The notes under the pieces are model-generated. The model ran no database searches and was not told where the DNA came from. It saw only the letters and a program-made list of their open reading frames with translations. From the NCBI RefSeq assembly GCF_009765975.1, contig NZ_LMUJ01000013.1:40929-104928 (forward strand): a stretch of 64,000 nt of DNA. Reading direction: 5' to 3'. Position 1 is the stretch's first letter. Each line of letters begins with the position of its first letter. Origin of the DNA: Acidisphaera sp. S103. Lineage in GTDB: Bacteria > Pseudomonadota > Alphaproteobacteria > Acetobacterales > Acetobacteraceae. This document shows, piece after piece, positions 11,278 to 24,277 of the stretch. The position numbers and the translations under genes were made by a program.

Positions 11278-12912
11278 CTATGGCGCCCCCACCGAAACGG
11301 CCTTGAGCACCGGTGCGTGCTCACCCTGTCCCTGGGACGGCACGACACGGATTGTCAGCGTGGCATTGTTTGTTGCGCCCAGCGCGGTGAACGCACGCAG
11401 CGTCTTGGGCAGCGGGACGGTGAACGTCGCGTCGGCCGACATATTCATGCCGGGTCTCATGGCGCCGAAGAAGGCGATGGTGCCGGCGTAGTAAGGACTG
11501 TCGGCCGCGACTTGGGTGACGCCGGCGGGCGCATTGATCAGAACATCGAATTCCCGGGCGGTGGACGTGCCGCTGGGGCGGGGTAGGGTGACTTCCGCCA
11601 CCAGCGGCCGCGCGAGCGTGTCGGCGAGATGGCTTTGGATCGTTGCGCGCGGCATCACGACCGATCCGACATTGGCCTTCACGCTGCCGTTGACGGGCGG
11701 TGCGGCTTTCCTGGCCGTCAGCGCGGCGGTTGGCGGCTGGATAAGCTCTTCGCCAAAACCGGGTGCGTAATCATAGTCGAACACATCGGTACTGAAATAA
11801 TCCCCCGCCTTGCTTGGGCCCACATAATTGCCCTTGCCGTCGACGTAGAACAGAAACGGCTCCTCCGCGAGGGTTTTGAGGTCCTGGCCGGTGGGAAGAT
11901 AGGGCAGGTTGAGGCGCTTCTGCTTACGCGTCCATACGTCCCACAACCGATCCATGTTCGCATGGTGCAGGTAGAAGATCGGATCGACCGGCGACAGGAA
12001 GTTGGTCATGCTGCCATAGGGTCCCGGATCGAGTGGTCCCACCCCCCCGATGCAGTTGTGGACTTTGTTGTGAGGGAAGCCTTCCAGCACCGAAAACTTG
12101 GTCGATCCGTTCGGCTGCGTATTGTGCGACGGCGTTTTCGAACTGGTGAAGCTCTGTTCGTTGTCGGGGTTGTAGAAATCCGTCGGCTGCAGACCTGACT
12201 TTATGATGAACGGCGATACGTCATAGGTCGTTTTGGGGTCGAGTTTGGGATTGTCGCGTGACAGATAGCGTGCGGCGCAGGTGGTCGCGAATGCCTCATT
12301 CCCGGAAATGCCGGCCTGGGCGGACGCGCTGTAGCCTGTCACGTCGTTCCAGAGATCGTCGAATACCTTGTAGCCCCTGGCGTCCTGCTGGGCATGCTGC
12401 GCGGACGACAGGTTGTTCCAATAGCTGGTGAGTGTCGGTTTGATGAACGAGGTGAAGAGCGCCAGGTTGCCGGTATAGGGCTCGAACGCCTTGGCGGTGG
12501 GCGTCAGCACGCCGTCGAACATCCCACCCGGTATTTGCGGAAGCTGGGTCCAGTCCCAATAGGGCATGGCAAAGCTGTCGTCGCCGCTCAAGGCCCGAAT
12601 GGTGCGTTCAAAGTAGCCGACATAGCCGCGATGCCAGACATAGAACCACCAGTTGCCGTGCGGGCAATCCATCAGATGGATGAAGGCGTTGCGGAACCAG
12701 TTCTGCGGATGATCGGGCGGCAATTTGAGCATCGCTTCCACGCCTTTGGCATAGCTGGCGAGCATCTTCTGGCCCTGGGGGGTGGTGACGTTGTAGCGGG
12801 TGTATTTCGCGGCCGCCCGCGCCGGCGCGATGGGCAACGCCGCGACACCGGCGGCGACGCTGGCTGTGGTCAGAAAATCGCGGCGTGTGCAATGAAAACG
12901 AGCCTTGCGCAT
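11278..12912 (-). CDS. Exported tyrosinase / polyphenol oxidase family copper protein
   Basis: A 544-residue type 3 copper oxidase. The N-terminus carries a twin-arginine type signal (CTRRDFLTTASVAAG ... APARA), as expected for folded, metal-loaded export. The CuA site is formed by H79 (AFIHL), H85 (CPHGNWW) and H94 (VWHRGY); the CuB site includes histidines in PHNKVHN and the pair H316-H317 in DPIFYLHHANMDRLWDVW. A C-terminal ~150-residue beta domain, as in plant polyphenol oxidases, may shield the active site. It would hydroxylate monophenols or oxidise diphenols to quinones outside the cytoplasm. The small exported gene at 10891 follows in the same operon. Confidence 0.92.
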   Translation of the reverse strand: MRKARFHCTRRDFLTTASVAAGVAALPIAPARAAAKYTRYNVTTPQGQKMLASYAKGVEAMLKLPPDHPQNWFRNAFIHLMDCPHGNWWFYVWHRGYVGYFERTIRALSGDDSFAMPYWDWTQLPQIPGGMFDGVLTPTAKAFEPYTGNLALFTSFIKPTLTSYWNNLSSAQHAQQDARGYKVFDDLWNDVTGYSASAQAGISGNEAFATTCAARYLSRDNPKLDPKTTYDVSPFIIKSGLQPTDFYNPDNEQSFTSSKTPSHNTQPNGSTKFSVLEGFPHNKVHNCIGGVGPLDPGPYGSMTNFLSPVDPIFYLHHANMDRLWDVWTRKQKRLNLPYLPTGQDLKTLAEEPFLFYVDGKGNYVGPSKAGDYFSTDVFDYDYAPGFGEELIQPPTAALTARKAAPPVNGSVKANVGSVVMPRATIQSHLADTLARPLVAEVTLPRPSGTSTAREFDVLINAPAGVTQVAADSPYYAGTIAFFGAMRPGMNMSADATFTVPLPKTLRAFTALGATNNATLTIRVVPSQGQGEHAPVLKAVSVGAP

Positions 12913-13416: not shown

Positions 13417-13419
13417 CTA
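13367..13419. repeat. Palindromic TAGAG-type element at the aminotransferase 3' end
   Basis: A 13-bp perfect inverted repeat (CGTTTGAGGTTGA at 13381-13393, matching arm ending 13408) with a 2-nt spacer is nested inside an outer pair, GAGGGCGAT and ATCGCGCTC. The right edge CGCTCTA provides the TAG stop of the minus-strand aminotransferase. The stem could also act as a terminator, though no T-run follows. Confidence 0.7.
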
Positions 13420-14799
13420 ACCGAGATCGAGCGTTGCCAAAGCGCGATCCAGCGTTTCTACGATACGGTCGCATTCGGTTCGGGTTATCACCAGGGGCGG
13501 GCACAGGGTAATCGTGTTGCCGTAACGACGTCCGCCACCGCCGCGCCCGACAAGCAGGCCGTTGTCACGGCAGAACTCGACGACAGCGGCGATCTGTGCC
13601 GGGGTCACCGGTTCCTTCGTCGTCCGGTCCTTCACCAGCTCCACACCCAGAAGCAGACCCTTGCCGCGCACATCGCCGACGATCATGTGCCGCTTCAAGG
13701 TGGTCAGCCCATCGAGCAGGTAGGCGCCGATTTCAGCGGAACGTTCCGTGAGCCGTTCCGCTTCCAAGATTTCGATATTGCGTAGCGCGACCGCGGCGGC
13801 GGCAGGATGGCCACCATAGGTGTTGACCTGGCCGACCTGACGGTTTTCCGCCGTATCGCCGTAGAAACTGTCGAACACGTTGTTCTTCACCACGGTTGCC
13901 GCGATCGGCAGATAGGCGCTGGAGATACCCTTGGCGATCGCGATAATGTCGGGCGAGACGCCGTAGTGCTGATGCGCGAACATTTTGCCGGTGCGGCCGA
14001 AGCCGTTGATCACCTCATCGACGTGCAACAGGATGCCGTATTTGCGGCACAGGTTTTCGACTTCCGGCAGGTATTCATCGGGCGGCACCGCGACGCCGAC
14101 GCCGCTCATGATCGGTTCCACGATGACTTCGGCTACTGTTTCGGGTCCCTCACCCAGGATCGTGGTTTCCATGTTCTTGACGCAGGCCAAACCGCAGCTT
14201 GGGTAGGTCAGGCCAAACGGGCAGCGATAGCAGTACGGGTGCGCGACATGGACGAAATCGCCAGAGAACGGCTCAAACTTCGCCTTGCGTTCGCCCATGC
14301 CGCCGGCATCCAGGGTGGCCAGCGTCGTGCCATGATAGGCGAAATAGCGGCTTATGGTCTTGAAACGATATTCGGCCGGATATTCGTGTTTCATGTACTG
14401 CCGAGCGATCTTGAAGCCGGCTTCGTTCGCCTCGGAACCGGAGTTGACGAAGTAGGTATGGTAGCCCCCGCCCATCAGTCCGTTGATCTTGTCGGCCAGT
14501 CCGGCGGCGGGCAGGTTCATCGCGGTATGCGGGAAGTAGGACAGTTGCCGCATCTGTTCGGCGGCCACGTCGGCGAGTTCGGTGCGGCCATACCCGATAT
14601 TCACGCACCACAGCCCGGCCATGGCGTCGAGGTAGCTTGTGCCATCGGCGTCGAAGACCGTGGAACCCTGTCCGCCGGTGACGACCATCTGCTTGGTTTC
14701 CAGCGCTTTATGCTGGACGATCGGGTGCATGACGCTTTTCAGGTCCTGCTGCACCACGGCTTGGCGGATCGCGGGGTCGGGGGCGTTGGTCAGTGACAT
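13417..14799 (-). CDS. Class III (omega) aminotransferase, PLP-dependent
   Basis: A 460-residue fold-type I aminotransferase of the aspartate aminotransferase/omega-transaminase family. Visible features: the substrate loop MAGLWCVNIGYGR, the PLP phosphate-binding SGSEANE, the YHGTT segment, the LLHVDEVINGFGRTGKMFA strand with the PLP-binding Asp, and the Schiff-base lysine in IAIAKGIS. Such enzymes use pyruvate with beta-alanine, GABA, taurine or amines. Start at ATG 14799 with AGAGG upstream; an extension to 14883 is not supported. Divergent from the mct-mcd pair with 141 bp between. Confidence 0.92.
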   Translation of the reverse strand: MSLTNAPDPAIRQAVVQQDLKSVMHPIVQHKALETKQMVVTGGQGSTVFDADGTSYLDAMAGLWCVNIGYGRTELADVAAEQMRQLSYFPHTAMNLPAAGLADKINGLMGGGYHTYFVNSGSEANEAGFKIARQYMKHEYPAEYRFKTISRYFAYHGTTLATLDAGGMGERKAKFEPFSGDFVHVAHPYCYRCPFGLTYPSCGLACVKNMETTILGEGPETVAEVIVEPIMSGVGVAVPPDEYLPEVENLCRKYGILLHVDEVINGFGRTGKMFAHQHYGVSPDIIAIAKGISSAYLPIAATVVKNNVFDSFYGDTAENRQVGQVNTYGGHPAAAAVALRNIEILEAERLTERSAEIGAYLLDGLTTLKRHMIVGDVRGKGLLLGVELVKDRTTKEPVTPAQIAAVVEFCRDNGLLVGRGGGGRRYGNTITLCPPLVITRTECDRIVETLDRALATLDLG

Positions 14800-14940
14800 G
14801 TCTGCCTCTTCTGCTTGCTTGGCCGGCGGGATCCTACCATGACGATCGTGATAGTGACCAATGCCGGCCGATCGGGTACGCATGCGCCGTTACGGCCCGA
14901 TGGCCGCTGCACGGAAACCACATTACCGGAAACCGAACCT

Positions 14941-16158
14941 ATGCCTGGCATTCTGAGCGACCTGCGTATCGTCGAGGTGTCCGCCTTTATCGCGGCACCG
15001 CTGGGCGGGATGACGCTCGCGCAACTCGGCGCCGACGTCATCCGGATCGACCCGATCGGCGGCAACATCGATGCCAAGCGGTGGCCGGTGGCGCCGGACG
15101 GCACCAGCCTGTACTGGGCCAGCCTGAACAAGCGCAAGCGGTCGGTCTGCCTTGCCCTCAACACGCCGGAAGGGCAGGAAATCGCCCAGTCGCTGATCCG
15201 TGCCCCTGGGGCGAACGCTGGAATTCTGCTGACGAACCTGCCGGCGGGGAAATGGATGGGCTATGACGTGCTGAGGCAGGGCCGCGAAGACCTGATCGTC
15301 CTGCGCCTGACCGGCAATCCAGATGGCAGCGCGGCGATCGACTATACGGTGAACTGCGCCGGGGGTTTCCCGCTGGCGACCGGCCGTGGCGAAGAGCCGG
15401 TCAATCATGTGCTGCCAGCCTGGGATATCACCGCCGGGCTGTATCTCGCGACCGGGCTGCTGGCGGCGGAGCGTGCCAGGAAAGGCTCCGGACATGGCCA
15501 GGAGGTGACGCTGGCGTTGTCGGACGTCATGCTGGCCTCTGTCGCCAACCTTGGCTACGTCGCCGACGTGCAGGTCAACAACGTCGTGCGCCCGCCGCTG
15601 GGCAATGACCTGTACGGGGCGTTCGGCCGGGATTTCGGCACATCCGACGGCCGACGCGTGATGCTGGCGGCGATTTCCAACCGGCAATGGCGCGCCATCG
15701 GCAAGGCCACCGGCCTGACGGACCGGCTGGAGATGATCGGTCCGATGATGGGTGTGGACATGGACACCGAGGGTGGCCGCTTCGAGGCGCGCAAAGCCAT
15801 CGCGGCCGTGCTGGAGCCGTGGTTCGCTCATCGCACCCTGGCCGAGATTCGTGCCGCGCTGGACGGTAGCGGCGTTCTTTGGGGGCCGTACCAGGATTTC
15901 GGTCAGATGGTGCATGAGGACCCGCGCTGTTCCCTGACGAACCCGATGTTCGGGGAGATCGATCAGCCTGGCGCCGGCCGCATCATGGCGAATGCCTCGC
16001 CGCTTGGGTTCAGCGCCGATGTCCGCCCGCCGCCGGCCCGCGCGCCGCGTCTTGGCGAGCACACCGAAGCGGTGCTTGCGGAAGTGCTTGGGCTGTCGTC
16101 AGCCCAGTACGGGCGACTGTACGACGCCGGCGTCGTTGCCGGCCCCAGCGATCGTTAG
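14941..16158 (+). CDS. mct: 2-methylfumaryl-CoA isomerase (mesaconyl-CoA C1-C4 CoA transferase), CaiB/BaiF family
   Basis: A 405-residue class III CoA-transferase. Several segments match the Chloroflexus Mct type as I know it: AAPLGGMTLAQLGADVIR followed by DPIGG and KRWPV, the DYTVN and VNHVLPAWDI stretches, LYGAFGRDF, and a MDTEGGRFEAR segment. Mct moves CoA within mesaconyl-CoA from C1 to C4, giving 3-methylfumaryl-CoA for hydration to citramalyl-CoA. The neighbour, 12 bp downstream, is a methylsuccinyl-CoA dehydrogenase, the enzyme that makes mesaconyl-C1-CoA, which strengthens the call. A generic succinyl-CoA-type transferase is the fallback. The start codon is supported by homology more than by its weak ribosome site; longer in-frame starts exist to 14815. 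Confidence 0.75.
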   Translation: MPGILSDLRIVEVSAFIAAPLGGMTLAQLGADVIRIDPIGGNIDAKRWPVAPDGTSLYWASLNKRKRSVCLALNTPEGQEIAQSLIRAPGANAGILLTNLPAGKWMGYDVLRQGREDLIVLRLTGNPDGSAAIDYTVNCAGGFPLATGRGEEPVNHVLPAWDITAGLYLATGLLAAERARKGSGHGQEVTLALSDVMLASVANLGYVADVQVNNVVRPPLGNDLYGAFGRDFGTSDGRRVMLAAISNRQWRAIGKATGLTDRLEMIGPMMGVDMDTEGGRFEARKAIAAVLEPWFAHRTLAEIRAALDGSGVLWGPYQDFGQMVHEDPRCSLTNPMFGEIDQPGAGRIMANASPLGFSADVRPPPARAPRLGEHTEAVLAEVLGLSSAQYGRLYDAGVVAGPSDR

Positions 16159-16170
16159 GAGACAGCGCGC

Positions 16171-17832
16171 GTGTCAAATTCACCGGATGCCCTTGCGCTG
16201 CTGGACCTCTGCGGCACCGCCATGACGCTGGCGGAGCAGTTGGTGGAGGCCTCGCGGCATGCCGTTGCCTTGCTGGTGACCGAGGACGGCAAGCCAAATG
16301 CGGCGCTGATCGACACGCACCAACTGGCGGCGCATGGCTTCGCCTGGCAGGCGACCTATATCGAGGCGCTGCGCCAGACGTTGGGGTGGGCGCGTGGCCT
16401 GCATGCGGCCGGCGGGTTCACCGATGTCGAGGCGGCGATCCTGCGGCTGGGTTTCGCCGAATATGTGTCGCAGCTCGCGGGCGGCATTCCGATCAGCCAG
16501 ACCGAAATGATCCGTCCCACAGATATCGGCGTGCCGGCGCAGGCGGTCCTGGGGCTGCTGACGCATCCCGAACTGGCGCGGCTGTCCGACCCGTCCGCGT
16601 TGAACGCCGCCCGGCAGTGCCTGGCGGCCGCGGCGATCGATGGCCGGTTCGGCGATGTCGGGATCGCCGACGAGACCATTGCCGCCATCCGTGAGCAGTT
16701 CCTGCGCTACGCGGCGACCGAGATCGCGCCGCATGCCCAGGGCTGGCATCAGCGCGATGAGCTGATTCCGATCGGTGTCGTTCAGCAACTGGCCGAAATG
16801 GGGGTTTTCGGCCTGACGGTGCGTGAGGAAGACGGCGGTTCGGGCCTGGGTAAGATCGCGATGTGCGTTGTCTCCGAGGCGCTCAGCGGTGGCTATATCG
16901 GCGTCGGTTCTTTGGGCACGCGGGCGGAGATCGCGGCGGAGCTAATCGGGATCGCGGGGACGCCGGAGCAGAAAACCCGGTGGCTGCCGGCGATCGCCTC
17001 CGGCGCGATATTGCCGACGGCGGTTTTTACCGAACCGAACACCGGGTCCGATCTGGGCAGCCTGCGGACTCGCGCGGTGCGGGAGGGGGATCATTATCTG
17101 GTGACCGGGGCGAAGACCTGGATTACCCACGGATCGCGGTCCGATCTGATGACATTGCTGGTTCGTACCGATCCGGCGGCGCCCGGCTATCGCGGCCTGT
17201 CGATGCTGCTGGCGGAAAAGCCGCGCGGCACTGACGGTGATCCGTTCCCGGCCGCCGGCATGACCGGCAGCGAGATCCCGGTGCTGGGCTATCGCGGGAT
17301 GAAAGAGTACGAGATCGGCTTCGAGAACTTCAAGGTCCCGGTTGCCAATTTGCTGGGTGGTGTCGAGGGCCAGGGATTCAAGCAGTTGATGGAGACGTTC
17401 GAGAGCGCTCGCATCCAGACCGGCGCCCGAGCGTTGGGGGTGGCGCAGAATGCGCTGGAACTCGGTTCGGCTTACGCCCGGGACCGGAACCAGTTCGGCA
17501 AGGCGATCATCGGGTTCCCGCGTGTCGCCAACAAGATCGCCTGGATGGTGACGGAGACGATGCTGGCCCGTCAGTTGACGTATTTTGCCGCCAGGCAGAA
17601 GGACGGCGGCCAGCGTTGCGACATCGAGGCCGGGATGGCGAAATTGCTGGCTGCCCGGGTGGCGTTTTCCAACGCGGACAGTGCGCTGCAGGTGCATGGC
17701 GGGAATGGCTATGCGATCGAATACCCGATCAGCCGGGTGTTGTGCGATGCGCGTATTCTCTCGATCTTCGAGGGGGCTGCCGAGATTCAGGCCCAGGTGA
17801 TCGCTCGCGGATTGATGGGGCGGCTGAATTGA
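16171..17832 (+). CDS. mcd: (2S)-methylsuccinyl-CoA dehydrogenase, acyl-CoA dehydrogenase family with N-terminal extension
   Basis: A 553-residue FAD enzyme. Residues ~170-553 form a complete acyl-CoA dehydrogenase (FTEPNTGSDLGSLRTRA for FAD/substrate binding, ALGVAQNALELG, RNQFGKAI, QVHGGNGYAIEYP near the flavin). The first ~170 residues are the extra helical domain known from Mcd of the ethylmalonyl-CoA pathway. GMKEYEI, FESARIQTGARA and ARILSIFEGAAEIQAQVIAR also fit Mcd. It oxidises methylsuccinyl-CoA to mesaconyl-C1-CoA during acetyl-CoA assimilation. It starts at GTG with AGGAGA overlapping the mct stop region, so it is in an operon with mct. Other ethylmalonyl-CoA genes are not in the window. 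Confidence 0.82.
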   Translation: MSNSPDALALLDLCGTAMTLAEQLVEASRHAVALLVTEDGKPNAALIDTHQLAAHGFAWQATYIEALRQTLGWARGLHAAGGFTDVEAAILRLGFAEYVSQLAGGIPISQTEMIRPTDIGVPAQAVLGLLTHPELARLSDPSALNAARQCLAAAAIDGRFGDVGIADETIAAIREQFLRYAATEIAPHAQGWHQRDELIPIGVVQQLAEMGVFGLTVREEDGGSGLGKIAMCVVSEALSGGYIGVGSLGTRAEIAAELIGIAGTPEQKTRWLPAIASGAILPTAVFTEPNTGSDLGSLRTRAVREGDHYLVTGAKTWITHGSRSDLMTLLVRTDPAAPGYRGLSMLLAEKPRGTDGDPFPAAGMTGSEIPVLGYRGMKEYEIGFENFKVPVANLLGGVEGQGFKQLMETFESARIQTGARALGVAQNALELGSAYARDRNQFGKAIIGFPRVANKIAWMVTETMLARQLTYFAARQKDGGQRCDIEAGMAKLLAARVAFSNADSALQVHGGNGYAIEYPISRVLCDARILSIFEGAAEIQAQVIARGLMGRLN

Positions 17833-17857: not shown

Positions 17858-18107
17858 TGACGCGGGTCGAATCGTACCTACGGACGTTGACGTTGGTACA
17901 TGAGCGTCGTCATGGGCCGGCGAAGTGCGGTCCAGCGCCTTACTGGGGCGGATGGCCCGGACTTCGCCGGGCCATGACGTGGGAGGCGGGCCATGACGCG
18001 GGAGGCAGGTCGTGGCGCGGGAGGCGGGCCATGACGTGGGAGGCGGGTCATGGCGCGGGAGGCCGGCCCGGGGGCGGCAAGGGACGGGCCGTGACGCGGG
18101 TCGAATC
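17858..18107. repeat. 19-bp tandem array flanked by direct repeats
   Basis: Five 19-bp units of the type GGGCCATGACGYGGGAGGC run from 17969 to 18063, with substitutions in units 3 and 5. The array is preceded by the palindrome GATGGCCCGG...CCGGGCCAT (17951-17974) and framed by a 17-bp direct repeat, RTGACGCGGGTCGAATC, at 17858-17874 and 18091-18107. The right flank touches the stop codon of the enoyl-CoA hydratase. The gap between converging genes holds nothing else. Confidence 0.7.
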
Positions 18108-18948
18108 AGTTTCCTTTGAACTGGGGCTTGCGTTTTTCGACGAAGGCCTTGCGGGCTTCCTTCGCATCATCGGAATGTTGCAAAATCGGACTGGCGTTGG
18201 AGGTCAGCACCATCGTTGCCTCCATGGTGGTGTCCAGCGATGTGCGCATGATGCGCTTGCTGATCCACTGCACCAGCGGCGGCCGAGCGATGATTTTGGC
18301 ACAAAGTTCGCGGGTGGTTTCTTCGAGTTTGTCGGCGGGGACCAGGTGGTTGAGCATGCCCCATTCGTAAGCTCGCTGGGCTGTCAGTTCGCCGGTGTAA
18401 GCAAATTCCAGCGCTCGGCCCAGGCCGACCATTTTCGGCAGGTAGTATGATCCGCCGTTCTCGATGATCTGGCCGGCGTTGTGGTATCCGATGAAACGGG
18501 TTTGGTCGCAGCCGATACGGATGTCGCAGTGCAGTGCCATGTCCATGCCGGATCCGACCGCCGGGCCGTTGATCATGGCGATCGTCGGTTTGCGGATCTT
18601 GGCGATGTCGAGGTGGAGCTGGGTGAAGCCGTGAAAGAAGTGCTGCCGCGTGCCGTCCAGGCCTTCATGCGCACTGCGGTTGCCGGGAAAGTTCTCCCCG
18701 GCATCGCCTCTGTTCGAACCAAGGTTCGCGCCCGCACAGAACGCTCGGCCGACGCCGGTCAGGATGATGACGCGGACGTTGGGATCGTCGTCGGCTGCCC
18801 GCATGTATTCGCCGACCTTGGCGACGGTACTGTTTTCCTCGGCGGTGCCGACCAGGGCGTTCAGCCGTTCCGGGCGGTTGAATTTGATCCAGAGGATGCC
18901 GTTGTCCTCGGGTTCATACAGCAGGTGATCGACCAGTTTCGGTCCCAT
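18106..18948 (-). CDS. Enoyl-CoA hydratase/isomerase family protein
   Basis: A 280-residue crotonase-fold protein. The first oxyanion-hole region is GRAFCAGANLG and the second INGPAVGSGMDMALHCDIRI; the active-site helix continues with GYHNAGQIIENGGSYYLPKMVGLGRALE, where the usual acidic residue appears as E in IIENGG. Such proteins hydrate, isomerise or cleave acyl-CoA esters; the exact reaction is open. It lies 12 bp downstream of a serine hydrolase on the same strand, so the two form an operon. Confidence 0.88.
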   Translation of the reverse strand: MGPKLVDHLLYEPEDNGILWIKFNRPERLNALVGTAEENSTVAKVGEYMRAADDDPNVRVIILTGVGRAFCAGANLGSNRGDAGENFPGNRSAHEGLDGTRQHFFHGFTQLHLDIAKIRKPTIAMINGPAVGSGMDMALHCDIRIGCDQTRFIGYHNAGQIIENGGSYYLPKMVGLGRALEFAYTGELTAQRAYEWGMLNHLVPADKLEETTRELCAKIIARPPLVQWISKRIMRTSLDTTMEATMVLTSNASPILQHSDDAKEARKAFVEKRKPQFKGN

Positions 18949-18960
18949 TGTCGGTTTCCT

Positions 18961-20202
18961 TTATGCGAACGATTCGGTCATGGCCGCGTAGACCAGGGTG
19001 CGCAGGTCACGGCGTAGCGTCAGGCGGACGTCGCTGCCGATGACCTGGGTCATGAAGACGACGGCGAGATCCTCCCTGGGGTCGATCCAGAAAGCGGTGG
19101 ACGCGGCACCGCCCCAGAAGAATTCTCCCGTCGTGCCGGGCAGGCGGGTCTTGGCGACATCGATGTTGACCCCGCAGCCGATAGAGAAGCCGACACCGGA
19201 ATAGCCGGATTCGGAGAAATTGCCCGGTGGCGCCATGTCGGCCAGTTCCCGGTTGCCGGGCAGGTGGTTCAGGCTGAACAGCGCGACGGTCTTGGGGCTG
19301 AGGATCTGGACGCCGTCGAGCGTGCCTCCGTTCAGCATCATGCGGCAGAAACGCATGTAATCGTGCGCGGTGGAAACGAGGCCGCCGCCGCCGGATTCCA
19401 GGTTGGGCGGCCTGGCGTAAGTGCTGTTGCCGGCGTCGTCCTGTAGTTTGATCCCGCCGCCTTCCTTGGGCTGGTAGCAGGAAGTGAAACGATCTTGTTT
19501 CTCGGGTGGGCACCAGAAGGCGGTGTCGGTCATACCGAGCGGCTGGAACAGATGGGTGCGGAGGTATTCGCCGAAGGTCATGCCACTGAGTTTTTGGACC
19601 AGATAGCCCATGACATCGATCGATACGGAGTAGTTCCATTGTGTGCCGGGGGAGAATTCCAGCGGCAGGGTGGATAGCTGCTGAATCATGGCATCCAGGC
19701 CGCCTTCCGTGGTCAGGGCAGCGACACCGAGGTGGCGGTAGGCGGCATCGACGCTTGTGCGGTTCATGAAGCCGTAGGTGAGGCCGGAGGTATGGGTGAC
19801 GAGGTCGACGACCTTCATAGGGCGGATCGGCGGGGTGGTGATGAAGGACGGCGCGCTGGCGACCAGGGATGCGACGCCGGTGGCGTAGACGCCGAGGTTC
19901 TTCCAGGATGGGATGTGGGTGGCGACGTCGTCGTCGAGGCCGATCAGGCCTTGCTCCAGCAGCATCATGAGGGCGACGGCGGTGATGGGCTTGCTCATGG
20001 AATAGATGCGGAAGATGGCGTCTTCCCGCATGGGCTTGCGGCGTTCGAGGTCGATATGGCCGGCCATGCCGGTGTGGACCAGGGTGCCTCGGCGGTAGAT
20101 CTGAGTGAGGATGCCGGGCAGGCGGCCGGTTTCGACGTATTTGGACGCCATAATGTGATCGAGACGGGCCAGGCGATCGGCGGACAGGCCGGATTGGGTC
20201 AT
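18961..20202 (-). CDS. Beta-lactamase-fold serine hydrolase (class C / EstB type)
   Basis: A 413-residue protein without an obvious signal peptide. The catalytic S-x-x-K is in YSMSKPITA, the second element is the tyrosine of NYSVSIDV (Y-x-V variant found in EstB-like esterases rather than Y-x-N of true beta-lactamases), and HTSGLTYG is the typical family strand. An esterase or acyl-CoA/lactone-hydrolysing role next to an enoyl-CoA hydratase is more likely than beta-lactam resistance. ATG 20202 fits the domain start; the ribosome site is weak and a start farther upstream (to 20292) is possible. Confidence 0.87.
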   Translation of the reverse strand: MTQSGLSADRLARLDHIMASKYVETGRLPGILTQIYRRGTLVHTGMAGHIDLERRKPMREDAIFRIYSMSKPITAVALMMLLEQGLIGLDDDVATHIPSWKNLGVYATGVASLVASAPSFITTPPIRPMKVVDLVTHTSGLTYGFMNRTSVDAAYRHLGVAALTTEGGLDAMIQQLSTLPLEFSPGTQWNYSVSIDVMGYLVQKLSGMTFGEYLRTHLFQPLGMTDTAFWCPPEKQDRFTSCYQPKEGGGIKLQDDAGNSTYARPPNLESGGGGLVSTAHDYMRFCRMMLNGGTLDGVQILSPKTVALFSLNHLPGNRELADMAPPGNFSESGYSGVGFSIGCGVNIDVAKTRLPGTTGEFFWGGAASTAFWIDPREDLAVVFMTQVIGSDVRLTLRRDLRTLVYAAMTESFA

Positions 20203-20532
20203 GAGGGGTGCGTCCCTGGGTGGTTTGTTGAGGTAGTAACCGGGGAGGGCAGGGGGTTTGTCAAATGGGCCGGTTGCCGCCCTGCGCGGCAAACGCGGCG
20301 AGATTGCCCTGAGTCCACGATTCGTAATGCCGCCTATCGACGCGAAATAATCGCTCCAGGGGAAGCACCGCTACTTGATACCGTCATGATGGGCGCAGAC
20401 CCACTATTGATGCTTTTTCCAAGATCAGCACTTGAAGGCGTGGATGGTGGGCCTGCGCCCACCATGACGACGAGAGGCCAACGCCCTGTGTTTTGAGGAT
20501 TCGGTTATTTGCGTCGGACCCTAAGCCCCCTC
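20203..20532. other. Intergenic region, 330 bp, containing an interspersed repeat
   Basis: Lies between the serine hydrolase start and the 3' end of an acyl-CoA dehydrogenase on the same strand. It carries copy 3 of the interspersed repeat (20342-20487) and presumably the promoter of the serine hydrolase. No coding region with recognisable content. Confidence 0.55.
20342..20487 (+). repeat. Interspersed intergenic repeat, copy 3
   Basis: Begins GCGAAATAATCG and AGCACCGC exactly as copy 1, then GTCATG, a diverged middle, and the hairpin GGATGGTGGGCC TGC GCCCACCATGACG. It lacks the GAAGCACTTGTT end of copies 1 and 2. Compensatory changes keep the hairpin paired (GGTGGGC with GCCCACC here, GGCGGGC with GCCCGCC in copy 2), which suggests that the structure is conserved. 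Confidence 0.68.
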
Positions 20533-21789
20533 TCAAACCACCAGATTCTTCGGCACATCCCGGAACGGCCGGTCGTTGTCCGTCCGCGGTTCTTTCGGCA
20601 TCCCCAACACCCGCTCCGAGATGATGTTCCGCTGGATTTCATCCGTTCCGCCGGCGATCGACCCGGCCGGGACCGACACCAGGATCTCGGCGATTACCCC
20701 GCCCATGGCTCCGTCCTCACCTGTCAGCATGGCGTCCGCGCCGCTGATCAGGGTGTGGACCCGCGCGGACGCCCGGGCGACGTGGCTGGATGCCAGCTTG
20801 CCGAGCGAGCCCTCCGGCCCTTGCGGCTTGCCTTGCAACTGTGCCGCGCGCGCGCGCCTTGCCGTCCATTCGGCCGATTTCTGCAGCGTCAACAGCTTGG
20901 CGATCTCCTGCCGCACCACCGGGTCGTTGTTTACCCCGGCGGCCTTGGCCCGCTCGATCACCAGATCCACACGGCCGGCGCGTTGTGGATACCACTTGTA
21001 TGGCTCCATGACGGTTGCGTTTTCCGCCCGTTCTTCGTCGTAAATCCGTCCGGTGCCGGAGGACGACTTGCCCCAGTTGCGGACGCCGTCGGCCTCTCGC
21101 CGTTCATGCATCAGCGTCGTCGTTGCGACGGCCCAGCCGCGGCCGACATCAAGCACCAGATGCTCCGGCAGCACCTCGGCATCGGTGAAGAACACCTGGT
21201 TGAACGAGGCGTGTCCGTTCATCTGGCGCAACGGATGCACCTGCACGCCCGGTTGGTGCATATCGATAATGAAATACGACAGCCCCTGATGTTTCGGCAC
21301 ATCGACGTCGGTGCGAGCCAGCAACAAACCCCAATCCGCGTGATGCGCGCTGGTCGTCCACACCTTCTGTCCGTTGATCACCCATCGGTTGCCCTGGCGC
21401 TCGGCCTTGGTCGTCGCGCCGGCCAGGTCGGACCCGCTGCCCGGTTCGCTGAACAATTGGCACCAGGTGTCCTCACCGGACAGGCTGCGGCGCAGGAACT
21501 GTTCTTTCTGTGCCGGTGTCCCATGCGCCAGCAGCGTCGCGGCGGCCAATCGCCGGATACCGGCCTTCGCCACGCCGACCGCGCCGACGCGGAGGAATTC
21601 CTCGTCCACCACGGCCTGCAATCCAACCGGCAGGGCCTTGCCGTACCAATCCGTCGGCCAGGTCGGCACGCCCCAGCCGGAATCGATCAGAATGTTCCGC
21701 CACTCCACCAAGCCGTAATCGGTGCGCCAGTTTGCTTCCAGCCAGGCGCGGACTTCCGCGCGGACGGATGCCTCGGTCATTTCGGTCAT
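20533..21789 (-). CDS. Acyl-CoA dehydrogenase family protein
   Basis: A 418-residue FAD-dependent acyl-CoA dehydrogenase. Motifs: LFSEPGSGSDLAGATTKAER (substrate/FAD loop), WVINGQKVWTTSAHHADWG, and a C-terminal GGTDEIQRNIISERVLG, where the helix that usually carries the catalytic Glu is located. The second ATG (21789) is chosen because GGAGGG is 7 nt upstream; ATG 21795 would leave no spacing. It lies 15 bp after a second, different dehydrogenase gene; such pairs often form heteromeric alpha/beta acyl-CoA dehydrogenases of the steroid/terpenoid degradation type (FadE28/29-like). Substrate unknown. Confidence 0.9.
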   Translation of the reverse strand: MTEMTEASVRAEVRAWLEANWRTDYGLVEWRNILIDSGWGVPTWPTDWYGKALPVGLQAVVDEEFLRVGAVGVAKAGIRRLAAATLLAHGTPAQKEQFLRRSLSGEDTWCQLFSEPGSGSDLAGATTKAERQGNRWVINGQKVWTTSAHHADWGLLLARTDVDVPKHQGLSYFIIDMHQPGVQVHPLRQMNGHASFNQVFFTDAEVLPEHLVLDVGRGWAVATTTLMHERREADGVRNWGKSSSGTGRIYDEERAENATVMEPYKWYPQRAGRVDLVIERAKAAGVNNDPVVRQEIAKLLTLQKSAEWTARRARAAQLQGKPQGPEGSLGKLASSHVARASARVHTLISGADAMLTGEDGAMGGVIAEILVSVPAGSIAGGTDEIQRNIISERVLGMPKEPRTDNDRPFRDVPKNLVV

Positions 21790-21804
21790 GATCATTCCCT
21801 CCGC

Positions 21805-22935
21805 TTAGACGTTCCAGGCGCGCATCAGCAGTTCGCGGTGCCAGGCCGGATCGCCCAGAAACACCTCGGAGCTTTTGGCGCGCTTGAACCAGAGATGCGT
21901 GTCGTTGTCCCAGGTGAAACCAATGCCGCCGTGGATCTGGATCGTGCTGATCGCGGTCTGCATATAGGCTTCCGACGCCGCGGCCTTGGCCAGGGAGGCA
22001 ATGGCCGGCAGTTCCGGATCATCCTCGGCCGCCGCGGACGCCGCCGCATAGGCCGCCGACTTTGCCAGTTCGACATCGACCAGCATATCGGCCTGTTTGT
22101 GCTTCATCGACTGGAACGACCCGATTGTCCGCCCGAACTGTACCCGCAGGTTGGCATAGTCCAGCGCCGACAAGCGCAGCCGTTCGGCTCCGCCGACCAT
22201 TTCGTTCGCCAGGCAGGCCGCCGCCTGCACCATGGTTTTGGCGAACGGTGCCGCGGCACCGCCTTCCTGCCCCAGCAGGTCCGCCTCGACCGACTGGAAC
22301 TCAAGCCGAGCCTGCTTGCGGGTCGGGTCCATCACTTTCAGCGGCCGGCGGGTCAGGCCGGCGGCGTTGCCGGGAACGGTGAAGAACGACAGGCCATCAT
22401 CCCCGACGGAGCCAGGCCGCCGTGCCAGGACGACAATCAGATCGGCGCTGTGTCCGTCGACGACGAAGCTTTTCACCCCATCCAGCCGGAACCGGCCGCC
22501 CGCCGCCGTCGCCGTCGCCTGAACGCCGGTCGTGTCCCATCGCCCGTTCGGTTCGGTGAACGCCAGCGCCGCGACGCAGCTTCCGTCGGCGATCGCCGGC
22601 AGCAGGTCTCGCTTCTGTGCCTCGGTCCCGGCGTTGACGATCGCCGTTGCCGCCAGCACCGTCGAGGCGAAATACGGCGCGCACAGCAGTGCCCGGCCCA
22701 TTTCCTCCAGCACGATGCCGAGTTCGACGAAGCTGAAGCCCTGGCCACCGTAGGCTTCGGGGATGTGGATCGCGGCGAGCCCGAGTTGTTGGTTCAGGTC
22801 GACCCAGGCCGCGCGATCCCAGCCGGTTTCCGTCTCCATCAGGCGACGGACGGCGGTTGCCGGCGACTTGTCCTCCAGGAAGCGGCGCAGGACGGAGCGA
22901 AATTCCTCCTGCTCGCTGGTGAAGCTGAACTGCAT
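21805..22935 (-). CDS. Acyl-CoA dehydrogenase family protein (partner subunit)
   Basis: A 376-residue acyl-CoA dehydrogenase with a typical N-terminal helical domain (FSFTSEQEEFRSVLRRFLED), HIPEAYGGQGFSFVELGIV, and the C-terminal QIHGGIGFTWDNDTHLWFKR. It lacks a clean TEPxxGSD loop (ALAFTEPNGRWDTTGV instead), as seen in the non-canonical halves of heteromeric FadE pairs. ATG 22935 has an excellent GGAGGAATCGC upstream. It is the first gene of the two-gene operon with 20533-21789 and divergent from the CoA-transferase at 23069. Confidence 0.9.
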   Translation of the reverse strand: MQFSFTSEQEEFRSVLRRFLEDKSPATAVRRLMETETGWDRAAWVDLNQQLGLAAIHIPEAYGGQGFSFVELGIVLEEMGRALLCAPYFASTVLAATAIVNAGTEAQKRDLLPAIADGSCVAALAFTEPNGRWDTTGVQATATAAGGRFRLDGVKSFVVDGHSADLIVVLARRPGSVGDDGLSFFTVPGNAAGLTRRPLKVMDPTRKQARLEFQSVEADLLGQEGGAAAPFAKTMVQAAACLANEMVGGAERLRLSALDYANLRVQFGRTIGSFQSMKHKQADMLVDVELAKSAAYAAASAAAEDDPELPAIASLAKAAASEAYMQTAISTIQIHGGIGFTWDNDTHLWFKRAKSSEVFLGDPAWHRELLMRAWNV

Positions 22936-23068
22936 GCGATTCCTCCCTCGGCGCGTCGGCACACAGTGGCGGAGGATGACGCGGTTCGGCAAGGCTGGCC
23001 GCGTCCGGCTTGTGGCTGGCCGATACGTGACCGATAGTTGGGCGATAGTGCCAAGGGGACACGCGACG

Positions 23069-24277
23069 ATGCCGAACAACAATGACGGACCTCTCGCCGG
23101 TATTCGCGTGCTGGACCTGACAACGGTGCAGATGGGTCCGTGGTGCACCCGCATCATGTCCGATTTCGGCGCCGATGTGATCAAGGTTGAGGCACCGGAG
23201 GGCGACTCGTCGCGCTATACCGGCGTGCCGAAACATCGTGGCATGAGCGGCACGTTCCAGCACAACGGCCGCGGCAAGCGCAGCGTCGCCCTGGATTTGA
23301 AGCAGCCTGAGGCCCAGGACGCGGTGCTGCGGCTGGTGCCGACGGCGGATGCATTTGCCTCCAACATCCGTCCGGCCGCGTTGGCGCGTTTGGGCCTGGA
23401 TTACGACTCGATCAGGCGGATCAACCCGTCGATCGTCTATCTCAGTATGGTGGGCTACGGCAGTGCCGGGCGTTACGCGGGGCGTCCGGCGTATGACGAC
23501 CTGATCCAGGCCGCCGCCGCCATCCCGATGCTGCTGCAACGATCCACCGGGCAGCCGCGCTTCATCCCGATGGCGGCGATCGACCGTATCGTGGGGTCGG
23601 CGGCCGCCAACGCGCTGCTGGCCGGATTGCTGGCGAAGGCGCGCACCGGCATCGGGCAGCAGATCGAGGTGCCGATGTTTGAAACCATCGCGCAGTTCGT
23701 GCTGTCGGAGCACATGCAGGGCCAGACGTTCGATCCGCCCACCAGCCCCGCGGGTTACCCTCGCACCCTGTCGCAGCATCGCCGGCCTTACCCGACCAAG
23801 GACGGCTATATCGCCGCGCTGCCCTACAATGACGGGCAGTGGCGCCGTTTCTTCGAGGCCGTCGGTAAGGGCGAGATGCTGAAAACCGACCCGCGTTTCG
23901 CCGACATCACCGCCCGTACGGCGAACATCGATTCGCTTTACGAAATGATCGCCGAGGAGCTGAAGCACCGCACCACGGACGAATGGCTGGACCTGCTGGA
24001 ACGCAACGATATTCCTTGTATGCGTCCGCATACGCTCGAATCGTTGATGGAGGATCCGCACCTCGCGGACGCTGAATTCTTTCGCTGGATCGACCATCCG
24101 TCGGAGGGCCGCATCCGCACCATGCGCGAACCCAGCACCTGGTCGGAAACCAAACCCCCCACCGGTCGCTTCGCCCCGCGCCTCGGCCAGCACACCCGTG
24201 AAATTCTTGCGGAAGCCGGCTTCGACCCCCAGATCATCGACGACCTGGTCGAGCGCAAGATCGCCAAGACCGACTAA
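23069..24277 (+). CDS. CaiB/BaiF family CoA-transferase
   Basis: A 402-residue class III CoA-transferase: GIRVLDLTTVQMGPWCTRI with FGADVIKVEAPEGD at the N-terminus, KRSVALDLKQPE, and the FRWIDHPSEGRIRTMREP region near the C-terminus, full family length. It would transfer CoA between a donor acyl-CoA and a free carboxylic acid, activating a substrate for the divergently encoded acyl-CoA dehydrogenase pair. The start ATG 23069 follows AAGGGGAC; a longer frame from 22763 overlaps the divergent gene and is rejected. No close resemblance to the Mct homolog at 14941. Confidence 0.9.
   Translation: MPNNNDGPLAGIRVLDLTTVQMGPWCTRIMSDFGADVIKVEAPEGDSSRYTGVPKHRGMSGTFQHNGRGKRSVALDLKQPEAQDAVLRLVPTADAFASNIRPAALARLGLDYDSIRRINPSIVYLSMVGYGSAGRYAGRPAYDDLIQAAAAIPMLLQRSTGQPRFIPMAAIDRIVGSAAANALLAGLLAKARTGIGQQIEVPMFETIAQFVLSEHMQGQTFDPPTSPAGYPRTLSQHRRPYPTKDGYIAALPYNDGQWRRFFEAVGKGEMLKTDPRFADITARTANIDSLYEMIAEELKHRTTDEWLDLLERNDIPCMRPHTLESLMEDPHLADAEFFRWIDHPSEGRIRTMREPSTWSETKPPTGRFAPRLGQHTREILAEAGFDPQIIDDLVERKIAKTD

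Follow-up and report, generated by a model that had tools for sequence, protein, structure and literature searches.

A linked mct–mcd gene pair in Acidisphaera sp. S103 as a putative catabolic module for methylsuccinyl-C1-CoA independent of the ethylmalonyl-CoA pathway

We analysed a stretch of 64,000 nucleotides from Acidisphaera sp. S103 (contig NZ_LMUJ01000013.1; hereafter the window), in which the gene for a Mct-like family III coenzyme A (CoA)-transferase is followed by one for a predicted (2S)-methylsuccinyl-C1-CoA dehydrogenase (Mcd). The reading that we favour, with a probability of roughly 60%, is that the pair forms a catabolic module for methylsuccinyl-C1-CoA that would work independently of the ethylmalonyl-CoA (EMC) pathway, the activities, the direction and the downstream steps all being predicted from sequence. 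We favour it because of the identities of the two enzymes, the conserved linkage of their genes, and the failure to find either Ccr or the mutase family of the EMC pathway in this genome. Mcd would oxidise (2S)-methylsuccinyl-C1-CoA to mesaconyl-C1-CoA, and Mct would then shift the CoA intramolecularly, preserving the thioester, to give mesaconyl-C4-CoA. A MaoC-type hydratase (Meh/Ich-like) would produce citramalyl-CoA, which a CitE/HpcH-type lyase would split into acetyl-CoA and pyruvate.

The mct gene occupies positions 14941–16158 (+ strand), from an ATG at 14941 that aligns with the first residue of the two solved Mct structures to a stop codon at 16156–16158 (405 amino acids). The mcd gene occupies positions 16171–17832 (+ strand), from a GTG at 16171 to a stop codon ending at 17832 (553 amino acids). 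The place, the shared strand and the 12-base gap were as originally predicted, and the spacing suggests that the two genes are cotranscribed. The motif AGGAGA at 16158–16163 (+ strand), read in the sequence, overlaps the mct stop codon just 5′ of the GTG and is the likely ribosome-binding site of mcd. GC3 values are similar, 0.80 for mct (calculated from the longer open reading frame (ORF) 14815–16158) and 0.81 for mcd.

The Mct-like protein scored 489 bits with the Mct of Roseiflexus (7xkg) and 483 bits with that of Chloroflexus (8apq); the best of the other solved family III enzymes gave 87 bits. Identity to the Chloroflexus aurantiacus enzyme was 56% (226/403). Against the Mct model TIGR04253 the score was 497 bits, compared with 106 bits for the succinyl-CoA:mesaconate CoA-transferase model. 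We mapped the catalytic and site residues given in PMC9813914 and PMC9196870. Asp165, Arg47, Tyr136 and Leu43 of Chloroflexus Mct correspond to D162, R47, Y135 and I43 and are all kept; a leucine or isoleucine at position 43 is described as common to intramolecular transferases (PMC9813914). The CoA-sealing residues R75, F101 and R104 are replaced by N74, L100 and G103.

An alignment of 101 Mct-family rows, the query among them, separated these two groups of residues. R47, N100, D135, Y136 and D165 were invariant, while R75, F101, R104 and R314 were variable. As the R75, F101 and R104 positions vary throughout the family, we did not take them as defining. Asp165, Arg47 and Tyr136 were invariant in the 27 rows linked to mcd and in the 74 other Mct rows, and were found in 8/8, 2/8 and 0/8 of the outgroup rows, respectively; D135 and mostly N100 were also present in the outgroup. 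Position 43 was leucine or isoleucine in 26 of the 27 linked rows and 68 of the 74 others, and in none of the eight outgroup rows. On a FastTree phylogeny of 111 rows, the Mct family together with the two solved Mct proteins split from eight other family III rows with a support of 100, this outgroup containing no characterised enzyme and having long branches that were flagged. The query fell inside the Mct family, within a starred set of 22 rows of which 15 are mcd-linked. The original assignment of the first protein, a CaiB/BaiF-type sequence, to Mct is thus upheld as that of an Mct-like protein, for which Mct activity is predicted and which lies outside TIGR04253 membership.

The second protein matched the Mcd of Paracoccus denitrificans (6es9) with 672 bits over residues 8–549, so that the N-terminal extension is covered; the next solved structure gave 268 bits. 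The two share 326 of 534 aligned positions (61%). We tested nine residues of the P. denitrificans enzyme taken from PMC5798300 (Ser248, Arg252, Ala285, Phe287, Arg376, Thr418, Arg421, Phe534 and Glu535). All nine are kept in the query, as they are in all 31 linked Mcd rows and in all 22 rows labelled ccr_no_mct. No second match in the genome spans the N-terminal extension, the next best having 35% identity from residue 173 onward. The naming of the second protein as Mcd is thus supported, and its product would be the substrate of Mct, as had been proposed.

The residue data also bear on whether the pair acts on a different branched dicarboxyl-CoA, such as a larger alicyclic or isoprenoid fragment, which we consider unlikely. 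The conservation of the nine Mcd active-site residues in every linked row, and of Arg47, Tyr136 and Asp165 in all 101 Mct-family rows, argues against a different substrate. In its favour, the family III CoA-transferase model has 57 matches in this genome (some being fragments of one gene), and the clusters around some Mct homologues (L110, L146) include thiolases, acyl-CoA dehydrogenases or a monooxygenase. There is also a precedent in anaerobic naphthalene degradation, where a dehydrogenase and an intramolecular CoA-transferase work as a pair (ThnO/ThnP; PMC11659651). ThnP differs in belonging to family I (Cat1) and in acting on an alicyclic diacid.

The part of the originally proposed branch that leads towards mesaconyl-C4-CoA gained support from other genomes. 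A Meh homologue adjoins mct (<200 bp, from listed coordinates) in 11 genomes of the class, and in two genomes of one family with no Ccr match (G102 and G208), mct, meh and mcd stand in a single row. In Azospirillum canadense (L086), mct–mcd lies within ∼7 kb of a gene for a RipC-type citramalyl-CoA lyase (390.6 bits; cut-off 375). This cluster also holds the c6 hydratase, which is Meh/Ich-like by gene place and matched no NCBIfam model, a family III transferase that reaches no NCBIfam cut-off, and a short acyl-CoA dehydrogenase. These lyase and hydratase clusters and the short dehydrogenase recur in A. rugosum (L088). We rejected a lyase in the f102 rows, where the downstream genes tested are crotonase/RpfF-like (L238, L240) or encode proteins without a Pfam match.

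In Acidisphaera, the candidate for the hydratase step is encoded at C101:22455–23288, unlinked to mct–mcd. It shares 58% identity with the A. canadense c6 hydratase and 48% with its c6 counterpart from a Roseiflexus bin; a second hydratase, at C80, is 43% identical to it. The genome carries a transferase, a hydratase and short dehydrogenases that resemble members of the A. canadense cluster, all away from mct–mcd. At its own locus (L159, 5892–9292 on contig C101), the hydratase gene stands directly behind those for a 477-residue protein of the fumarase/argininosuccinate-lyase superfamily and a FabK-like flavoprotein. Among 30 Meh loci, with a flank of ∼1.5 kb, a fumarase/argininosuccinate-lyase-like gene was otherwise seen only in L221 (32% identity).

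These data are relevant to a reversed order of steps, in which Mct would turn methylsuccinyl-C4-CoA, the product of an itaconate-type CoA-transferase, into the C1 ester for Mcd, and mesaconyl-C1-CoA would then pass through methylmalyl-CoA to glyoxylate and propionyl-CoA. We regard this as rather improbable. The gene seen beside mct in other genomes is the C4-type Meh, and no full-length C1 hydratase was found in the genome: matches to the C1 hydratase family PF19315 were limited to a 163-residue ORF (61 bits against a Pfam cut-off of 26.5, covering model positions 18–169 of 353) and one further match under the cut-off. Nor was a mutase for the use of propionyl-CoA found, other propionyl-CoA routes not having been searched for. 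In favour of the reversed order are this half-length PF19315 match and a CoA-transferase on C68 with 48% identity to the transferase of the A. canadense cluster. For phenylsuccinyl-CoA transferase, moreover, PMC11659651 states that a family III enzyme moves the CoA within a saturated diacid.

Mcd is a defining enzyme of the EMC pathway, and the pair was originally taken to be fed by it. We found no match in the genome (8,370,829 bases in 116 contigs, 97.08% complete) to PF01642, the family of ethylmalonyl-CoA mutase (Ecm) and of the methylmalonyl- and isobutyryl-CoA mutases, which was detected in 8 of 14 control genomes. There were 21 matches to the Ccr model TIGR01751, none past the cut-off, the best giving 146 bits against 378.55. 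An EMC link was therefore rejected for this genome. The genome has 13 HpcH (lyase family) matches, of which two were run against NCBIfam.

To see whether the pair is conserved, we examined 80 named mct loci (L079–L158), the best 80 of at least 567 relatives. Twenty-five of them carry a full-length mcd close to mct and come from genera including Rhodopila, Roseomonas, Falsiroseomonas, Azospirillum, Bosea and Bradyrhizobium. In 16, mcd is directly downstream of mct, with 15–167 bp between the aligned ends; in the other nine it is upstream, at ∼2.1 kb in seven Azospirillum loci (separated by an SDR and a LysR gene), 1.5 kb in L115 and 5.6 kb in L133. The remaining 55 loci have no full-length mcd in the stretch available, which in some ends near mct. 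When 44 genomes (40 of the 80 named loci and four others) were tested for Ccr at a threshold of 1e-80, 36 gave no match and eight gave a match. Of the 22 tested genomes with linked mct–mcd, 20 gave no Ccr match, the exceptions being two Bosea genomes (L090, L091).

For Mcd, a maximum-likelihood tree of 61 rows was made by quick search, with the best matches to the query rather than a random set as comparison rows. On it, 16 linked Mcd sequences including the query formed one clade with a support of 100, and every row in it is mct-linked. Linked Mcd sequences outside this clade came from seven Azospirillum, four members of family f102, L115 with L133, and L058 with L083. The linkage label changes five times on the best tree, although starred branches force only one change. 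Two contigs labelled Nitrosovibrio (L087) and Herminiimonas (L101) have Mct proteins 74% and 69% identical to the query; the L087 Mcd pairs with that of an Acetobacteraceae bin (L084), and these may be binning errors. In the gammaproteobacterial bins L146, L148, L150 and L156, mct lies inside a large cluster, which in L146 includes an SDR, a MaoC hydratase, a thiolase, acyl-CoA dehydrogenases, a luciferase-like monooxygenase, an aldehyde dehydrogenase and a sigma-54 regulator.

Co-occurrence was then scored in 385 genomes of the class (E-value thresholds of 1e-60 for Mct, 1e-120 for Mcd and 1e-100 for Ccr, with the best few candidates scored per genome). Mct was present in 57, Mcd in 159 and a Ccr match in 120 (119 past the cut-off). 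Among the 159 genomes with Mcd, Mct was found in 25 of the 42 without Ccr and in 17 of the 117 with Ccr (Fisher p = 6e-8, a value inflated by relatedness). The difference persisted at the family level (13/22 versus 12/52 families, p = 0.006) and when one genome was drawn per family (69 families, median p = 4e-4). Across the class as a whole, Mct and Ccr were unassociated (18 of 57 Mct genomes, odds ratio 1.0). Ccr and Mct were both missing from 17 Mcd genomes, and Mcd was missing from 15 Mct genomes, so both enzymes should have other uses. A homologue of the C101 hydratase (E 1e-40) was found in 126 of the 385 genomes and in 43 of the 57 with Mct (odds ratio 9.1). Meh homologues were also associated with Mcd and Ccr, and thus the tie to Mct is the strongest without being exclusive.

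We consider it very improbable that the pair is a side branch of the EMC pathway whose Ccr and Ecm either fall in the unassembled remainder of the genome or are too diverged to be seen. The two Bosea genomes that combine mct–mcd with Ccr, and the 17 class genomes carrying Mct among the 117 that have both Mcd and Ccr, would fit a side branch, as would the place of Mcd in the EMC pathway. The missing PF01642 and Ccr matches in a genome that is 97% complete, the lack of Ccr matches in nearly all tested linked-pair genomes and the independence of Mct from Ccr in the class argue against it. That the two genes are chance neighbours with unrelated uses is scarcely credible given linkage in 25 of 80 loci, at five distinct positions on the best Mcd tree with a single origin being all that its starred branches force, even though flanking genes are not conserved and the other 55 loci have no full-length mcd in the stretch available.

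We considered how methylsuccinyl-C1-CoA might arise. Since the carboxyl that bears the CoA is the one beside the methyl branch, the supplying reaction should yield this particular ester. By chemistry, it could come from oxidative decarboxylation of 3-methyl-2-oxoglutarate or thiolysis of 4-methyl-3-oxoadipyl-CoA; C1-selective activation of methylsuccinate is a further candidate. According to PMC6449761, methylsuccinyl-CoA and acetyl-CoA are the end products of the 4-methylcatechol route, and in the actinobacterial locus L110 a thiolase gene is directly upstream of the Mct homologue. A homologue of 2-oxoglutarate dehydrogenase E1 (∼860–900 residues) is encoded in 10 of the 80 named loci, from Azospirillum, Bosea and Bradyrhizobium macuxiense (L089–L093, L095–L097, L099 and L100), several of which have a LysR regulator and a DctP protein. 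DctP binding proteins occur in the Bosea and Azospirillum clusters, with an aldehyde dehydrogenase also in Bosea. The Bosea SucA-like E1 scores 971.9 bits with the model for ordinary 2-oxoglutarate dehydrogenase E1, above its cut-off of 764, and its closest PDB entries are ordinary E1 enzymes and not clearly DHTKD1, so that any other substrate for it is a guess. A wider scenario, which we offer tentatively, is that an mcd–mct module, in some cases with meh, was assembled repeatedly in many bacteria lacking the EMC pathway. It would deliver acetyl-CoA and pyruvate from lineage-specific feeders, and in Azospirillum and Bosea perhaps from 3-methyl-2-oxoglutarate through the E1 homologue.

Several observations weigh against the Mct assignment or against an EMC-independent module in Acidisphaera. 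The Mct-like protein scores 497.1 bits with the NCBIfam equivalog TIGR04253, under its cut-off of 725 bits, and R75, F101, R104 and R314 of Chloroflexus Mct are lost. No supplier of methylsuccinyl-CoA is evident within the window, no Meh or lyase was seen among the scanned neighbours of mct–mcd in this genome, and the two HpcH proteins that were run against NCBIfam reached 152 and 142 of the 375 bits required for RipC. The half-length PF19315 match leaves some room for a C1 route. The 97% completeness of the assembly limits the absence of Ccr and Ecm, and single absences among the 44 tested relatives are weak, as completeness is known for four of them and several are metagenome bins. Where meh adjoins mct, 4 of the 11 genomes carry Ccr, Meh homologues are also commoner in genomes with Ccr (odds ratio 3.5) or Mcd (4.4), and of the 25 class genomes that have Mct and Mcd and no Ccr, 8 gave no Meh match at E 1e-40.

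The pair shares features with several known systems and differs from each. It resembles the Mct of Chloroflexus and Roseiflexus in sequence, in the catalytic aspartate, Arg47, Tyr136 and Leu/Ile43, and in its place in the same tree family, and differs from the Chloroflexus enzyme in the four lost residues, the sub-threshold TIGR04253 score and the linkage to mcd. The 3-hydroxypropionate bicycle needs methylmalonyl-CoA mutase among several enzymes, and no PF01642 match represents it here, the other bicycle enzymes not having been searched for. In partial bicycles mesaconyl-C1-CoA arises from the malyl-CoA/methylmalyl-CoA side, whereas here Mcd would supply it. Such a partial bicycle (Mct, Meh and a lyase) has likewise been proposed in heterotrophic metabolism, and is given for Accumulibacter, Kentron and others, few lineages with one alphaproteobacterium, in PMC6593406. 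The Mcd resembles the EMC-pathway enzyme of P. denitrificans in identity, extension and active site, and differs in belonging to a clade of 16 mct-linked rows and to a genome in which neither Ccr nor the mutase family was found. In the itaconate/methylsuccinate cluster of pseudomonads, a C4 route is used and the dehydrogenase makes mesaconyl-C4-CoA (PMC12290011); here, by contrast, an EMC-type C1 dehydrogenase with Mct would open a C1 entry. The linked Ict, Ich, Ccl and short C4 dehydrogenase set of that cluster has no counterpart hydratase or lyase among the scanned neighbours, Msi not having been searched for. We found no description of an mcd–mct unit in open PMC full texts, a search that leaves subscription papers outside its scope and is no proof of novelty; PMC8307300 and PMC8141488 added nothing.

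The genes around the pair are doubtful members of the unit. A class III aminotransferase (PRK07678 subfamily; 13417–14883, − strand; 537 bits, cut-off 488) diverges from mct by 57 bases, and a crotonase/enoyl-CoA hydratase identified by profile matches (18106–18948, − strand) is convergent with mcd. Aminotransferase-like genes (38–39% identity) occur in 3 of 116 mct loci, many compared with a flank of 1.5 kb only, and two of these (L078, L242) are one place; the case for a functional partner is weak. The crotonase has best matches of 27–33% near other mct genes, and together with the downstream acyl-CoA dehydrogenases (25–33% for the set) was also rejected as a partner. Further out, a 544-residue tyrosinase-domain protein (11278–12912, − strand) lies between an NMT1/ABC transporter set and the aminotransferase. 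A serine beta-lactamase-fold protein is encoded at 18961–20292 (− strand), its nearest NCBIfam model being methyl acetate hydrolase, under the cut-off. A second acyl-CoA set at 20533–24277 has two acyl-CoA dehydrogenases (− strand) adjoining an ordinary family III CoA-transferase (+ strand); its ORFs overlap, perhaps an artefact of taking the first possible starts. Ten further ORFs of the window had no bearing on the pair.

Mcd and Mct are usually encountered in two separate pathways, the EMC pathway and the 3-hydroxypropionate bicycle. Given a conserved Mcd–Mct unit in genomes without a detected Ccr, Mcd cannot by itself be taken as a sign of the EMC pathway. Mct homologues that keep the full catalytic set are far more widespread than the few lineages named in PMC6593406, 57 of 385 class genomes having a homologue. 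The module would give a use to methylsuccinyl-C1-CoA, called a dead end for Cupriavidus necator in PMC12290011, and a possible fate to the methylsuccinyl-CoA from ortho-cleavage of 4-methylcatechol, the point at which the passage in PMC6449761 stops. It thus points to a little-described route for the breakdown of branched five-carbon acids.

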